Shown here: positions 5,346-14,119 of the stretch, one piece after another
Position numbering within the stretch: the stretch's first letter is position 1
Layout: every line of letters begins with the position of its first letter
DNA from: an uncultured Kangiella sp.
Lineage (GTDB): Bacteria > Pseudomonadota > Gammaproteobacteria > Enterobacterales > DSM-103792
NCBI GenBank assembly: GCA_946481205.1
Contig: CAMLNB010000057.1
Coordinates: forward strand, 1 to 17,419
Direction: 5' to 3'
DNA: 17,419 nucleotides
Position numbers and translations under genes: made by a program
Notes under the pieces: generated by a model
What the model was told of the DNA's origin: nothing
Database searches by the model: none
What the model saw: only the letters and a program-made list of their open reading frames with translations

Positions 5346-7544
5346 ATGCGAATGCAGGGAGTCCGCAACACGCTCAGCGCGCGCTGGCTCAGTGCGCTGC
5401 TGATGGCCGGTCTGCTCAGCGCCTGTGGCAACAACAATTCCAGTGACAGCGACAACCCGCCACCGCCACCACCGCCGCCCAGTGGGTTGGCGAGTCGGCC
5501 GGATAACAGCAGCTGTCTGGCGCCGGAGAGCGCCGGTTCGACCGGTATCCGTTGGCAGGCGGCGTTTGCCCAGTTGCCGTCGCTGTCCGGTTTGGTCGGC
5601 CTGCATCAGGCACCGGGTGACAGCAGTGTGTTCTATGCGGTGCGCAAATCCGGGCTGGTGCAGCGCTTTGCCAATCAGCCATCGGCCAACACCGTGACGA
5701 CGGTGCTGGATCTGTCCGGTCGGGTCCGCGACAGCGGCGAGTCCGGTTTGCTCGGTTTTGCTTTTCATCCGCAGTACGCCAGCAATGGCCGGCTTTATGT
5801 GTACTACACCGGCGGAACGCCGCTGACCTCGTATCTTTCGCGCATCGTCCGCCGTGGCGATGGCTCCTTGAATGCCGCCGATGAAGACATTCTGCTTACA
5901 GTCGCGCAGCCGTATTCGAATCACAACGGTGGCCAGCTGGCGTTCGGTCCCGACGGTTTTCTGTATCTCGCGCTTGGTGATGGTGGCAGCGGCGGTGATC
6001 CGCACGGCCATGGCCAGAACACGCAGACATTGCTCGGCAAGATTCTGCGCCTCGATGTTAACCCGGCTAATGAAAACAGCGGCGCTGCGTATGCCATCCC
6101 GAGCGACAATCCGTTTGCCAATGGCGTCAATGGCCGGCCGGAAATTTACGCCTGGGGTTTGCGCAACCCGTGGCGGTTTTCGTTTGATCGCAGCAATGGT
6201 GAATTGTGGGCCGCTGACGTTGGCCAGAATGAATACGAAGAGATCAACAAAATCGAGCGTGGCGGCAATTACGGCTGGGCGGTGATGGAAGGCCTGCATT
6301 GCTTTGGCACCAGCAACTGCAATCAAACCGGATTGAAATTGCCGGTCTTTGAATACAACCACAACCAGGGCTGCTCGGTGACCGGCGGCTATGTCTATCG
6401 CGGCAATACGTTGGCGGCGTTGCAAGGCCGTTACATTTTTACCGATTACTGCAGCGCCAATGTCTGGTCGCTGATCCCGCAGGGCAATGGCAGCGTGCAA
6501 GCGGAAATGCTGACTTCACTATCCGGCAATCCGTCATCGTTTGCCGAGGATCACGCCGGTGAGTTGTACGCATTGATGCTGAGCGGCAGTGCCGGTGCCA
6601 ACATCTACAAGATGCAGCCGGAAGGCACGACGCCCGGTACGGTAGCGACCCAACTGTCGCAAACCGGTTGTGTCAGTAGCGTCGCGCCGAGCCAGCCGGT
6701 TGAGGCGGCCATTCCTTACACCATCAACAGCCCGTTTTGGTCCGACGGCGCTGACAAGGAGCGCTTTGCCGCGATTCCCAATTCGAGCCAAATCAGTGTG
6801 CAAACAGATGGCGATTTCAGTTTTCCTGCCGGCACGGTGTTGATGAAGCATTTTCGCTTGGCCGGGCAGCTGATCGAAACCCGGCTGTTCATGCGCCATA
6901 GCGATGGCTGGCGAGGTTACAGCTACGAATGGCGCGCCGATCAAAGCGATGCGGACTTGCTCAGTGACAGCAAAGACAAACTGATCAACGGCCAGCTTTG
7001 GCATTACCCGTCGGCCAGCGAATGCCTGCAATGCCATACCCAGGCTGCCGGTTTTGTCCTTGGTATCGAAGCGGGTCAGCTCAATCGCAATCTGCTTTAC
7101 AGTCGCACCGGGATCACGGCCAATCAGCTCGATACCTGGCAGCACATCGGCTGGTTCAGCAGCAATCTACCGACCAACATTCGCACGCTGCAGTACGCGG
7201 AACCCGGCGATACTACGGCGACCGTGACCGCGCGGGCACGCAGCTATCTGCACAGCAATTGCAGTCATTGCCATCGGCCGAATGCGGCGCCGGTCAGCAT
7301 GGATTTGCGCCACGGCACCGCCTTCGTCGATACCCAGACCTGCAATGCCTTGCCGCAATCCGGTTCGCTCGGCATCACCGATGCCCGCGTGCTGGCGCCC
7401 GGCGATCCGGCGCGTTCGCTGTTGCACAATCGAATGAACCGGCGCGATGGCAATGCCATGCCGCCGCTGGCCTCAAGCGTGATCGATACGGCCGGTGCTA
7501 CGTTGCTATCGGATTGGATTACCAGCCTGACTGGCTGCAACTAG
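5346..7544 (+). CDS. Lipoprotein fusing a PQQ-type sugar-dehydrogenase propeller to a diheme c-type region
   Basis: The protein has 732 residues. A signal peptide ends in the lipobox LSAC (C27), so it is predicted to be lipid-anchored, then comes a Ser/Asp/Asn stretch and eight Pro (38-45). The middle third is a soluble glucose dehydrogenase/HHIP-like beta-propeller: SGLLGFAFHPQY, HNGGQLAFGPDG with the catalytic-type H193, LALGDGGSGGDPHGHGQN, and IYAWGLRNPWRFSFD. The C-terminal third carries two heme c motifs, CLQCH (560-564) and CSHCH (639-643), within text resembling SO_2930/HNE_0200-type diheme proteins (from memory). The likely role is periplasmic oxidation of a sugar or alcohol-like substrate with electrons passed internally to heme. 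Substrate and PQQ binding are inferred; no pqq genes are in the window. The gene appears to be a single transcription unit. Confidence 0.88.
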   Translation: MRMQGVRNTLSARWLSALLMAGLLSACGNNNSSDSDNPPPPPPPPSGLASRPDNSSCLAPESAGSTGIRWQAAFAQLPSLSGLVGLHQAPGDSSVFYAVRKSGLVQRFANQPSANTVTTVLDLSGRVRDSGESGLLGFAFHPQYASNGRLYVYYTGGTPLTSYLSRIVRRGDGSLNAADEDILLTVAQPYSNHNGGQLAFGPDGFLYLALGDGGSGGDPHGHGQNTQTLLGKILRLDVNPANENSGAAYAIPSDNPFANGVNGRPEIYAWGLRNPWRFSFDRSNGELWAADVGQNEYEEINKIERGGNYGWAVMEGLHCFGTSNCNQTGLKLPVFEYNHNQGCSVTGGYVYRGNTLAALQGRYIFTDYCSANVWSLIPQGNGSVQAEMLTSLSGNPSSFAEDHAGELYALMLSGSAGANIYKMQPEGTTPGTVATQLSQTGCVSSVAPSQPVEAAIPYTINSPFWSDGADKERFAAIPNSSQISVQTDGDFSFPAGTVLMKHFRLAGQLIETRLFMRHSDGWRGYSYEWRADQSDADLLSDSKDKLINGQLWHYPSASECLQCHTQAAGFVLGIEAGQLNRNLLYSRTGITANQLDTWQHIGWFSSNLPTNIRTLQYAEPGDTTATVTARARSYLHSNCSHCHRPNAAPVSMDLRHGTAFVDTQTCNALPQSGSLGITDARVLAPGDPARSLLHNRMNRRDGNAMPPLASSVIDTAGATLLSDWITSLTGCN

Positions 7545-9961: not shown

Positions 9962-12900
9962 ATGAAACACTGGTGGCAGCGGTTATGTGCAGTACTGATT
10001 CTGGCATTGGGCGGCAGCAATCTGGTCGCCGCGGCCGATGTTGCCATACCGGAGCCGTTGAAGCCCTGGCGCGACTGGGCACTGCACGGCGAGGAGTTTC
10101 GTCGTTGTCCACTCAGCCACGGTCAGGATGGTGCTGACGCCGCCGATTTCGTCTGCGTTTGGTATGGCAGTCTGCAGATTGATGCGAGCAATAGCGGCGC
10201 CCGTTTCAGTGTGCCGGTCGATGTGCTCAGCGGTCGCGAAACGGTGGTCATGCTGCCGGGTTCCAGCGAGCTCTGGCCGCGCGAACTGAGTGATGGTTTC
10301 CGCAGTCTGCCGGTCATCGAACGCAACCAACAGCCAGCCGTGTTACTGCCGCCCGGCCGCACTGTCCTGCAAGGCCAGATCCGCTGGCGTCAATTGCCGG
10401 GCGCGCTGCCCTTGCCGAATGGTTTGGCGCTGGTGTCGCTGAGTTTGAATGGCAAACCGGTCGGCCAGGTGCAACGCGATGGCGATGCACTGATGCTGTC
10501 ATCCGATGAAAAACGCGCCACCGTGCAAGACACGTTGCAACTGCGGGTGTATCAGCGCGTGCAGGACGGCATTCCGTTGTTGCTCGAAACCGTGTTGACC
10601 ATCAATGCGACCGGCAGCGCCCGTGAAGTCGTGATCGGGCAACCGTTGCTGCCGGGTTTTGTCCCGACAGCGATGAGCAGCAAACTGGCCGCGCGCCTCG
10701 ATGAACAAGGTCAGCTGCGCTTGCAGCTGCGTGCCGGCGAGTGGCAACTGCATCTGTACAGCCGCGCCGAAAGCCTGCCGGAAACGCTGACACTGCGAAC
10801 GGATAACGGGCTGTGGCCGAGCGAAGAGATCTGGTCCTGGCAGAGTGGCGAGCGCCTGCGTGCCGCCAGTTTGGAAGGCGGTGTACCGATTGATCCGGTG
10901 CAGGCCGATGTGCCGAGTGACTGGCAGGAACTGCCGGCGCTGCGCGTACGCGCCGGCGAAAGCCTGCGCATCAGTGAGCGTAGCCGTGGCCGCCAAGTCA
11001 CCGACAACGCGCTGCAATTGCAGCGGGATCTGTGGCTGCGCTTTGATGGCAGCGCCTACAGCTTCCGCGATCAGATCAGCGGCACGTTGCGTCGCGATTG
11101 GCGGCTGGATATGGCCACGCCCTATCAGCTACTCAATGTCTCCGAAAGCGGCAGTGCCTTGCCGGTCAGCAGTGGCGACAACGACAGTCTGCGCGGCGTC
11201 GAATTGCGCACCGGTTATCTGAATCTGAATGCCAGTGGCGAACTGGCGCCTGATGCCGCCCTGTCGGCGACCGGTTGGCAAACGCGCTTCGACAGCGCGC
11301 AGGTGAATCTGCATTTGCCGCCCGGTTACCGTTTGTTGGCCGCCACCGGCGTTGACGATGCGCCCGGCAGTTTTATCGAGCGCTGGAATCTGCTCGATAC
11401 GTTCATTCTGGTGCTGACTGCCGTGTTGATTTTCAAACTCTACGGTGTGATCTGGTCATTGCTGGTGTTGGTGGCTTTTGCCTGGCTGTTCCATGAGCCG
11501 GAGATGCCGAACTGGCTGCTGCCGAATGCCGCGCTGGCACTGCTGGCCTGTCGCTATGCCAGCGGCAAATTGTTGACCTGGTTGCAACGTTATCGCTTGG
11601 TCAGTCTCGCAGCGCTGGTGCTGATCTTGATTCCATTTGCCGCCGGGCAGATCAGCGCACTGTTGCACCCGCAATTGGAGTCGCACGGCAGTGCTTATGG
11701 TTATGGTCATGCACCGGGTATCTATGATCAGGCGATGCCAGCTGCGGCCCCCGAACCGGTCATGCAAGAGTCAGCTATTGAGGTGCCGACTAAACCGCAG
11801 GCGAAGCGGGTGCCGATTGAGGAGGAGGCCGCCTTGATGGAGTTGAGGCGGCAAGAAGAGCAGCGGATCGAGGTGACTGGTTCCCGGATTAAACGCAGCG
11901 ATTTGTATCAAACCTATGCCGACAACACGATCAGCCAATCCGGCAAAGGCATTCCGAATTGGCAGTGGCACAGCTATACGCTGTCCTGGTCTGGTCCGGT
12001 CGATCCAGAGCAAAACGTCACGTTGTGGTTGCTGCCGTATGCTGCGCGCGTGTTGGTGGTATTGCTGGCGCTGGCGATCTTTGCCGGCCTGTTCCTGCGC
12101 GTTGTCCGTGAACTGACAGGCGCGGCGCCGTTGACGCTGGCGAAGCAGCAGCTTGGTTTCTCAATGTGGTTGCTGCCGCTGTTGTTTGCCAGCGCGTTGC
12201 TGCCATCGCCATCGGCACAGGCGGAGATGCCGTCCGAGCAATTGCTTAATGAGCTGAAAACCCGCTTGACCACGCCACCCACATGCGCGCCGAGCTGTGC
12301 TGAACTGGCCAATGCCGACGTACGGGCCAGCCGCGAGCAGATCGAACTGACGTTGGATGTGCAAGCGCTGGAAGCGAGCGCGATTCCGGTGCCGGGACGT
12401 GCAGGCGAATGGCTGCCGACCAGTGTGTCGCGCGATGGCGAGCGCAGCGTCGCGCGTCAGCGCGGTAATGGTTTGCAAGTCTGGGTACCGGCCGGCAAAC
12501 ATCGTTTGGTGTTGACCGGCCCGGCGCCGGGCAGCGATCGCGTTTCGCTGGCGTTTGCGCTGAAGCCGCGTCGCATCACTGTGCAACTCGACGGTTGGGA
12601 AGCCAGCGGTCTGCAAGGTGATTTGTTGCCATCCGGTTCATTGGCACTGACTCGTGCCGCCAGTCAATCGCCGCAGGAACGGGCAACGGTGACTCAGCTC
12701 AGCGTGCCGCCATTTGTTCAGGTCGAGCGGGTGTTGAGTTTTGCTGACGAATGGCGGGTCGATACCACCGTTACGCGGATGGCACCGCGTATTGGCGCGT
12801 TCACTTTGCCTTTGCCGCTGCTCACTGGCGAGGCAGTGCAAGACGACAATCTGAAAGTCGAGAACGGCAGCGTGCAACTGACTTTTGCCGCCAATGACGC

Positions 12901-14119
12901 CAGTCTGCGCTTTAGCAGCACCTTGGCGCGCGCTGAACAACTCACCTTGCAAAGTCCGGACAAGGCGACGTATGTCGAAATCTGGCAACTGGCACCGGAC
13001 AATCAATGGCGCGTGCGCACCGAAGGCACGCCACAGATCGCGAGCGAAGACGGTACGGATTGGTTGCAGACGTTTGCACCGCGGCCGGGCGAGACACTGA
13101 CCGTCAATATCACTCGACCGGTGATCGTAACCGGCGCGACGGTGGCGATCGATCAGTTGCAGGTGCATCACGAACAAGGTCAACGCGGTGCCAATGGTTT
13201 TCTGCAGCTGAGCTACCGCGCCACCCAAGGTGGCGAGCAGGTGCTGAAATTGCCGGCGGCATTGGAAGTGCTGCGCATCGAGCTGGATGGGCGCGAACAA
13301 ACGCTGCGCCCGCGTGAGGGCCTGCTGACCGTGCCGGTGTTGCCCGGCGAGCATCGGCTGATCATCAGTTATCGCGACAGTGCAGAAGTCAGCTGGCGTC
13401 AGGGCATACCAGCCATTGCGCTGGGTTTGCCGGCAGCGAATCTGAGCTACTCGGTGCAAATGCCGGACAACCGCTGGATTCTCTACACCAGCGGCCCGAC
13501 GCTCGGACCCGCCGTGCTTTACTGGAGTGCGCTGCTGGTGTTCATCGCCTTGGCGTTTGCGTTGGCACGCAGTGGTCTGACTGCCGTGAACTTCCGCGAC
13601 TGGTTACTGCTCGGTCTTGGCTTGTCGACCGTGTCGTGGTGGGTGCTGACGCTATTGGTTGTCTGGCTTATCGTACTGCGCTGGCGGGAAAAGCAGCAGG
13701 TGCAATCGAGTTCTGGTTGGTTCAACCTGCAGCAACTGGCGCTGCTGGCATTCAGTGGCATCGCGGTGTTGACACTGGTTGGTTCGGTACCGGCAGCCTT
13801 GCTGTCATCACCGGACATGATGCTGACCGGCAACGGTTCCTACGGCAATCAGCTGAACTGGTTTGCCGATTACAGCAATGATGTGTTGCCGGCCGTTCAT
13901 GTGATCTCGGTGCCGATGTGGTTGTACAAAGGTGCGATGCTGCTGTGGGCGATCTGGCTCAGCTTTGCCTTGCTGCGCTGGATCAAGCATGCCTGGCAGG
14001 CGCTCAATGTCGGCGGTTTCTGGCACAGCAAACCGGGCAAGACGCGACTGGCAACCGGTGGCGAACCGGATGCCGCAGCAACACCCGCCGACAATGCGGA
14101 CAAACCGACAGCGTCGTGA
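9962..14119 (+). CDS. Giant multi-pass envelope protein of unknown function with a TonB-receptor-like motif
   Basis: The protein has 1385 residues, and AGGAG lies 6 nt before the ATG. A signal peptide (MKHWWQRLCAVLILALGG..., likely cut after about residue 25) leads to a large beta-rich region, 26-478. Hydrophobic segments lie at about 480-493, 494-510, 517-531 and 546-566, then an exposed linker (about 570-690) containing RIEVTGSRIKRSD (635-647). A helix follows at about 692-712, then a signal-peptide-like segment at 735-754 ending SAQA, a second beta-rich region at about 755-1183, and more helices at 1184-1202, 1214-1241, 1259-1281 and 1319-1340. Topology counting places both large regions and the motif in the periplasm and the C terminus in the cytoplasm. 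From memory, similar uncharacterised long proteins with 'LPPGYRLLAATGVD' and 'GPTLGPAVLYW' exist in proteobacteria; no function is known to me. Confidence 0.85.
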   Translation: MKHWWQRLCAVLILALGGSNLVAAADVAIPEPLKPWRDWALHGEEFRRCPLSHGQDGADAADFVCVWYGSLQIDASNSGARFSVPVDVLSGRETVVMLPGSSELWPRELSDGFRSLPVIERNQQPAVLLPPGRTVLQGQIRWRQLPGALPLPNGLALVSLSLNGKPVGQVQRDGDALMLSSDEKRATVQDTLQLRVYQRVQDGIPLLLETVLTINATGSAREVVIGQPLLPGFVPTAMSSKLAARLDEQGQLRLQLRAGEWQLHLYSRAESLPETLTLRTDNGLWPSEEIWSWQSGERLRAASLEGGVPIDPVQADVPSDWQELPALRVRAGESLRISERSRGRQVTDNALQLQRDLWLRFDGSAYSFRDQISGTLRRDWRLDMATPYQLLNVSESGSALPVSSGDNDSLRGVELRTGYLNLNASGELAPDAALSATGWQTRFDSAQVNLHLPPGYRLLAATGVDDAPGSFIERWNLLDTFILVLTAVLIFKLYGVIWSLLVLVAFAWLFHEPEMPNWLLPNAALALLACRYASGKLLTWLQRYRLVSLAALVLILIPFAAGQISALLHPQLESHGSAYGYGHAPGIYDQAMPAAAPEPVMQESAIEVPTKPQAKRVPIEEEAALMELRRQEEQRIEVTGSRIKRSDLYQTYADNTISQSGKGIPNWQWHSYTLSWSGPVDPEQNVTLWLLPYAARVLVVLLALAIFAGLFLRVVRELTGAAPLTLAKQQLGFSMWLLPLLFASALLPSPSAQAEMPSEQLLNELKTRLTTPPTCAPSCAELANADVRASREQIELTLDVQALEASAIPVPGRAGEWLPTSVSRDGERSVARQRGNGLQVWVPAGKHRLVLTGPAPGSDRVSLAFALKPRRITVQLDGWEASGLQGDLLPSGSLALTRAASQSPQERATVTQLSVPPFVQVERVLSFADEWRVDTTVTRMAPRIGAFTLPLPLLTGEAVQDDNLKVENGSVQLTFAANDASLRFSSTLARAEQLTLQSPDKATYVEIWQLAPDNQWRVRTEGTPQIASEDGTDWLQTFAPRPGETLTVNITRPVIVTGATVAIDQLQVHHEQGQRGANGFLQLSYRATQGGEQVLKLPAALEVLRIELDGREQTLRPREGLLTVPVLPGEHRLIISYRDSAEVSWRQGIPAIALGLPAANLSYSVQMPDNRWILYTSGPTLGPAVLYWSALLVFIALAFALARSGLTAVNFRDWLLLGLGLSTVSWWVLTLLVVWLIVLRWREKQQVQSSSGWFNLQQLALLAFSGIAVLTLVGSVPAALLSSPDMMLTGNGSYGNQLNWFADYSNDVLPAVHVISVPMWLYKGAMLLWAIWLSFALLRWIKHAWQALNVGGFWHSKPGKTRLATGGEPDAAATPADNADKPTAS

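Follow-up and report, generated by a model that had tools for sequence, protein, structure and literature searches.

The window, a 17,419-nucleotide stretch of DNA from an uncultured Kangiella sp., contains a gene for a large inner-membrane protein, one segment of which reads like the start of a TonB-dependent receptor. The question raised by this locus is what such a segment does in a protein of this kind. A sequence-only reading of the same DNA had offered three answers, namely that the segment binds TonB, that it is a partner-recognition or processing signal which receptors also carry, or that it was captured as a fragment, and of these TonB binding is favoured here on sequence grounds. The gene lies at 9962..14119 on the plus strand, as do all the features described below, and its open frame encodes 1385 residues for which homologues were found. 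Over its whole length the protein has no match in Pfam or NCBIfam and so belongs to none of their families, and sequence searches of the PDB yielded nothing useful.

Architecture and predicted topology of the protein

Structure models of residues 1-764 (mean pLDDT 83) and 690-1385 (mean pLDDT 86) contain the same order of elements: a beta domain, a four-helix bundle, a disordered linker, a hairpin and a helix in the first model, with a short loop in the second where repeat 1 has the linker. The two halves are alike by profile comparison (probability 98, E 2e-13), and the protein is therefore a tandem duplication in which the linker that carries the box is an insertion in repeat 1. The N-terminus (residues 1-25; 9962..10036) is probably a signal peptide, given a modelled helix at residues 2-18 and a hydropathy run, and is followed by the repeat-1 beta domain (residues 60-462; 10139..11347), which was delimited by the model, Foldseek and VIA-align and is predicted to be periplasmic. 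Next come the repeat-1 helix bundle (residues 477-494, 496-509, 519-532 and 536-568; 11390..11665), as modelled, and the linker (residues 574-660; 11681..11941), which is hypervariable in the family, of low pLDDT and predicted to be periplasmic. Alignment and model define a conserved QSGKGIPNW segment together with the beta hairpin of the repeat-1 beta domain (residues 659-691; 11936..12034), with G661 and W667 invariant in the family alignment and the hairpin strands modelled at residues 670-676 and 685-691. A membrane helix backed by model and hydropathy follows the hairpin (residues 693-719; 12038..12118), and a weakly defined hydrophobic stretch (residues 734-750; 12161..12211), modelled as helix for 734-745 only, leads into repeat 2 (residues 757-1348; 12230..14005), where model and profile comparison place a beta domain, helix bundle, short loop, hairpin and helix.

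The best Foldseek match of each half is OST1/ribophorin I, at an overall rmsd of about 19 over 292 residues. The beta-domain fold is that of the M1 aminopeptidase N-domain, to which there is a close structural match over 143 residues. This M1-type match spans residues 348-692, and the hairpin after the linker thus belongs to the beta domain.

Residues 578-617 and 634-659 fall under pLDDT 50, and from this very low model confidence the linker is read as disordered. Immediately before the motif it is Glu/Arg-rich, and the earlier proposal that this linker faces the periplasm was borne out as a prediction by model and hydropathy. With a 19-residue hydropathy window only two runs appear in the helix bundle, at 484-504 and about 550-561, and two of the four modelled helices are only 14 residues long; the bundle would thus cross the membrane two or four times, both even numbers, which puts linker and N-terminal domain on the same side. 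A signal-like N-terminus, a large beta domain and then an even number of crossings favour a linker exposed to the periplasm. The acidic FHEPEMPNW loop and the positive CRYASGKLLTWLQRYR fit this placement by the positive-inside rule, although loop charge counts alone are non-decisive, with 0 Lys/Arg in the short loops. A cytoplasmic linker was ruled out by the predicted topology, at the level of prediction that model and hydropathy afford.

A receptor-type TonB box in the linker

Translation places RIEVTGSRIKRSD at residues 635-647 (11864..11902), exactly where the sequence-only reading had put it, and the positions 11867-11899 under which it was first recorded correspond to the inner 11 residues (636-646) of this 13-mer. 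The TonB-box-like core, EQRIEVTGSRIKR, occupies residues 633-645 (11858..11896) and was delimited by matrix score and by the family-conserved positions -5 to +5. The receptor-only matrix was made from 81 distinct 16-mers of 119 out of 120 receptors related to one Pseudoalteromonas receptor (the best 120 of 6467). On this matrix the window linker scores 24.0 bits, a value reached by 0 of 200 of its own shuffles, the best of which scores 14.2. The window box has Q at the acidic position and is therefore missed by the strict pattern [ED]xhxV[TS][GA]; on its matrix score it was nevertheless judged to follow the core pattern acidic-x-hydrophobic-x-Val-(Thr/Ser)-(Gly/Ala).

The absence of a receptor barrel, also claimed earlier, holds by Pfam and by the models. 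The Plug domain PF07715 has no match in the whole protein (Pfam) or in the linker piece, and in place of a 22-stranded outer-membrane barrel, for which there is no Pfam match, the models contain two beta domains and helix bundles. A degenerate receptor was ruled out, as neither Plug nor barrel is present. The MotA/TolQ/ExbB proton-channel domain likewise has no Pfam match in the window protein. Judged by its sequence, the segment is a TonB box of receptor type in a protein with neither plug nor barrel.

Conservation of the box in the proteobacterial family

The family set consists of the window protein and the best 120 of 185 relatives (121 in all), with named members from Permianibacter (69% identity), Rhodanobacter, Dyella, Dokdonella and Oceanisphaera. 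Linker limits for the counts were taken from the alignment, text anchors having missed 23 of the 121 linkers. In a motif-blind alignment, 62 sequences give ExVxVTGSR as their majority consensus over this region, against a linker that is otherwise hypervariable across the family. On the receptor-only matrix, 62 of the 121 family linkers reach at least 10 bits and 68 outscore all 200 of their own shuffles, the highest shuffle of any linker being 15.8 bits, and sites of at least 10 bits occur outside the linker in 4 of 121 proteins. A loose box pattern fits 84 of 121 linkers, against a mean of 7.7 and a maximum of 16 after shuffling; it also takes spurious sites, and a wider version used for the tree (85 of 121) misplaced the box in P0009 and P0026. 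The strict pattern is found in 48 of 121 linkers (shuffles: mean 0.48, maximum 3). Among 81 representatives under 70% identity, the loose box occurs in 51 and a score of at least 10 bits in 34.

When 47 of the 81 representatives are anchored on the box, only positions -5 to +5 are conserved, as L-E-x-V/I-x-V-T-G-S-R-I; nine of these 11 core positions hold 1.6-3.6 bits and the two x positions 0.9, whereas each upstream position from -6 to -30 holds under 0.5 bit; because anchoring selects the core columns, the result lies in this contrast with the flanks and not in the height of the core. Downstream of the box, some conservation resumes with the next domain, and QxGxGxPxW follows the box at a median distance of 21 residues (n 44; quartiles about 20-25), against a more variable upstream part of the linker (51-64).

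Chance or low-complexity convergence in the linker would accord with the VTGS word outside the linker in 20 of 121 proteins and with the average of 7.7 shuffled linkers that fit the loose pattern, but full-matrix scores exceed the shuffles, the strict pattern far outnumbers its occurrence in them, and the Verrucomicrobial set described below contains 0 of 120 by score or strict pattern. A chance origin is scarcely credible and was rejected on the matrix, on both patterns against shuffles, and on the Verrucomicrobial comparison.

The extent of the conserved stretch bears on another rival, in which the peptide would be read by a different periplasmic partner that handles receptors too, such as a protease, chaperone or assembly factor, and not by TonB. 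Family conservation runs beyond the classic pentapeptide to GSRI, and VTGSxI is kept in 108 of 120 receptors, as this rival would have it; however, the partners of the receptor segment named in the accessible part of PMC11658791 are TonB and the receptor's own signalling domain, and no other reader of the segment was recognised in the portions of the open-licence literature searched. Such a reader is considered improbable.

Similarity to receptors and the origin of the box

The earlier claim of likeness to a receptor start, upheld by the matrix score, also agrees with a generic receptor-type peptide, which finds receptors: it was found in 48 plasmid records (59 places, of which only the best in each record was judged), the best place being an annotated receptor in 38 and a Plug domain in the other 10, although this peptide was composed by the authors, includes the plug start and is thus biased to receptors. 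By itself, the 29-residue peptide of the window protein lacks significance, with two records at E<=10, a receptor (E=4) and a 92-residue chance frame. A 41-residue linker piece of the relative P0027, which runs into a plug-like start, found 24 plasmid records (26 places, judged in the same way; best E 2e-3), of which 19 are annotated receptors. In the other five, Plug is present in L068, L072 and L077, and L078 and L079 resemble receptor starts by eye. NZ_AP026896.1 and CP125156.1 (L072 and L080; 4.9 and 5.4 Mb) are labelled plasmids, and their size suggests chromosomes. The Plug model matched none of five linker pieces, P0027 included, and the linker region of P0026 shows weak, non-significant similarity to the NCBIfam model of a TonB-dependent B12 receptor (E 0.081).

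Since the P0027 linker matches receptors beyond the box and into the plug start, capture is a credible origin of the box. As the main rival for this origin, and perhaps for the whole, it holds that, by recombination with abundant envelope genes whose N-terminal stretches are similar, an Ala/Pro-rich linker acquires the fragment following the Ala/Pro stretch, be it a receptor box, an ExbB tail or a secretin domain, without selection for TonB binding; its probability is low but appreciable. Capture alone leaves unexplained why conservation stops at the box core and why the spacing from the box to QxGxGxPxW is fairly tight where the upstream length is variable.

Box-less relatives and the history of the box

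The proposed check on whether homologues lose the motif while keeping the linker gave a divided answer. Within the proteobacteria, the linker varies and the motif is often kept, as counted above by score and loose pattern, in favour of the sequence-only reading; against it, 37 of the 121 members lack even a loose box, and Verrucomicrobial homologues retain the end of the linker with the box absent. The 37 include P0113, P0120 and an Azoarcus plasmid homologue, and the protein can therefore do without the box. The Azoarcus homologue (L035), itself box-less, is carried on a mobilizable megaplasmid near FKBP and asparaginase genes.

The Verrucomicrobial set is the best 120 of 1604 matches to L003, whose identical protein is, like the other named ones, from Verrucomicrobiota. 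The receptor matrix reaches 10 bits in 0 of these 120 proteins, the loose pattern occurs in 7 and the strict pattern in 0. Of the 29 linkers taken from genome loci in the other phylum, likewise 0 reach 10 bits on the matrix; L031 (no linker) was left out of this scoring, L029-L031 out of the tree, and L032 and L033 out of linker reading. Genomes of another class yielded a more distant branch of the family (30 of 286), as did genomes of its phylum (4 of 387), some of the matches being partial. A genome scan with a single protein gave one locus, L001, and the profile found no family member in the L001 genome. Verrucomicrobial genomes with the box-less protein contain 0-6 Plug matches each, with at least one in 21 of 29 genomes, so that any link between the box and receptor number comes from one two-phylum comparison with receptors counted in the Verrucomicrobial genomes. 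Receptors with box-like starts occur in some of these genomes (L057, L063), and a lack of receptors therefore does not explain the lack of the box.

On a tree from which the linker columns were omitted, 20 changes of the box label are required, compared with a mean of 48 for shuffled labels. Boxes are present in all three main proteobacterial clades, and the two earliest-branching proteobacterial rows, P0113 and P0120, are box-less. Both an early gain followed by many losses and several independent gains fit this distribution, as the tree cannot separate gain from loss. The 20 changes are in keeping with repeated capture, but capture alone would leave the presence of the box in all three main clades unexplained.

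Other occupants of the linker

The motif NPY[GSA][LM] occurs in nine of the 121 linkers (P0061, P0066, P0078, P0094, P0098, P0101, P0111, P0118 and P0121), among them 8 of 36 box-less ones, and nowhere else in the family proteins, against a shuffled mean of 0.036 of 121; as these members partly cluster on the tree, the hypergeometric P of 2e-4 overstates the significance. Three of five ExbB-type proteins, those of Caballeronia, Variovorax and Sphingomonas, have NPYGL in their N-terminal tails as well, and those of Burkholderia cenocepacia (L086) and E. coli lack it, but four of the five were picked through a match to an NPYGL-bearing peptide and the proportion is thus not a frequency. The P0121 peptide found three records at E=5, two from Caballeronia, one of which is ExbB-type by sequence, and one from Rhizobium (a 76-residue frame), and the P0111 peptide with NPYGL found one record (E=9). 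As the direct match between linker and ExbB has E=5 and is not significant alone, the tie between NPYGL and ExbB is suggestive. In Serratia, the Ala/Pro-rich ExbB tail is described as binding HasB, a TonB paralogue, at the face of its C-terminal domain that lies opposite the box site (PMC9008036), and a text search of the accessible part of that paper did not find NPYG.

Nine of the 120 Verrucomicrobial relatives (P0249, P0294, P0297, P0314, P0323, P0326, P0345, P0360 and P0361) have a linker of more than 140 residues, and all nine match the Amuc_1098 secretin family (NF042912; best E 4e-42), at scores far below the full-length cut-off of that model. An STN domain in the insert scores below the Pfam cut-off. 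Amuc_1098 itself is, by published description, a secretin of type IV pili in the outer membrane (PMC4960237).

Such different pieces in different lineages are also expected under capture. The NPYGL and secretin segments also fit the linker as a docking slot, the NPYGL-ExbB part of this fit being weak. It is tentatively suggested, as a possibility still attended by more doubt than confidence, that the protein may be a Ton client resident in the inner membrane, and its linker an exchangeable slot in which trans-envelope machinery docks. Depending on lineage, the slot would hold a receptor box (most of the proteobacterial members examined), a motif of the ExbB tail (a few others) or a secretin segment (some Verrucomicrobia). 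The action of TonB would then extend beyond the outer membrane to a protein in the membrane where TonB itself resides.

A proposed Ton client and its genomic neighbourhood

The explanation held to be probable, from sequence and by analogy, is that the disordered linker carries a receptor-type TonB box to which the C-terminal domain of TonB would bind, making the protein a non-receptor client of the Ton system. Binding of this kind is suggested by the sequence, its context and published box behaviour (PMC11658791, PMC10771500, PMC9022066). For TonB-type proteins and box peptides, affinities of about 9-57 uM are quoted (PMC7593965). Published boxes include ETLTV of colicin M, for which strand pairing with TonB is described (PMC11658791), and the agreement of the window and family box with such ETLTV-like forms is counted in favour of TonB binding. 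The box sits just before the hairpin of the beta domain, much as a receptor box precedes the plug, and a bound Ton motor could thus pull on the beta domain or be held by it.

The nine neighbouring frames scanned encode EAL, nitroreductase, rhodanese/UPF0176, amino-acid permease, sugar dehydrogenase, GNAT, zinc-binding dehydrogenase, flavin reductase and photolyase proteins. No Ton gene is among them, a local Ton operon being ruled out by their contents, and nothing in them is suggestive of an oligosaccharyltransferase complex. The window has no Rfam match at the gathering score. At 5346-7544 lies a gene for a glucose/sorbosone dehydrogenase-like protein (Pfam) that starts like a lipoprotein and whose C-terminal part carries heme-type CxxCH motifs.

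The published descriptions consulted place TonB boxes in outer-membrane receptors and imported bacteriocins (PMC11658791, PMC9022066), and no earlier report of such an inner-membrane box was recognised in the portions of the open-licence literature searched. With a conserved box in an inner-membrane protein, the Ton motor would have clients within the membrane in which it resides, and through the box the function of a large unnamed family becomes open to direct test.

Comparison with known systems

OST1/ribophorin I and the N-terminal beta domain of M1 aminopeptidases have 5-12% identity to the window protein, which differs from them in being a tandem duplication with helix bundles and in having no peptidase domain found. 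The Amuc_1098-family secretin (NF042912) has a like piece in the same linker of the nine Verrucomicrobial relatives, whereas it has no match in the window protein. The periplasmic N-terminal tail of long ExbB proteins is likewise Ala/Pro-rich and is described as binding a TonB paralogue (PMC9008036), and NPYGL is common to such tails and the nine family linkers; the window protein, in contrast, has the box and not NPYGL, and no ExbB domain. With the VTGSxI-type box of TonB-dependent receptors it shares LExVxVTGSxI(R/K) and a segment, predicted to be flexible, just before a folded element, but its box lies away from the N-terminus, without plug (PF07715) or barrel, in an inner-membrane protein with several helices. 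Group B colicins, pyocin S2 and klebicin C are described as likewise having a TonB box within a disordered region of a non-receptor protein (PMC11658791, PMC9022066); these are imported bacteriocins, whereas the window protein is a predicted resident of the inner membrane.
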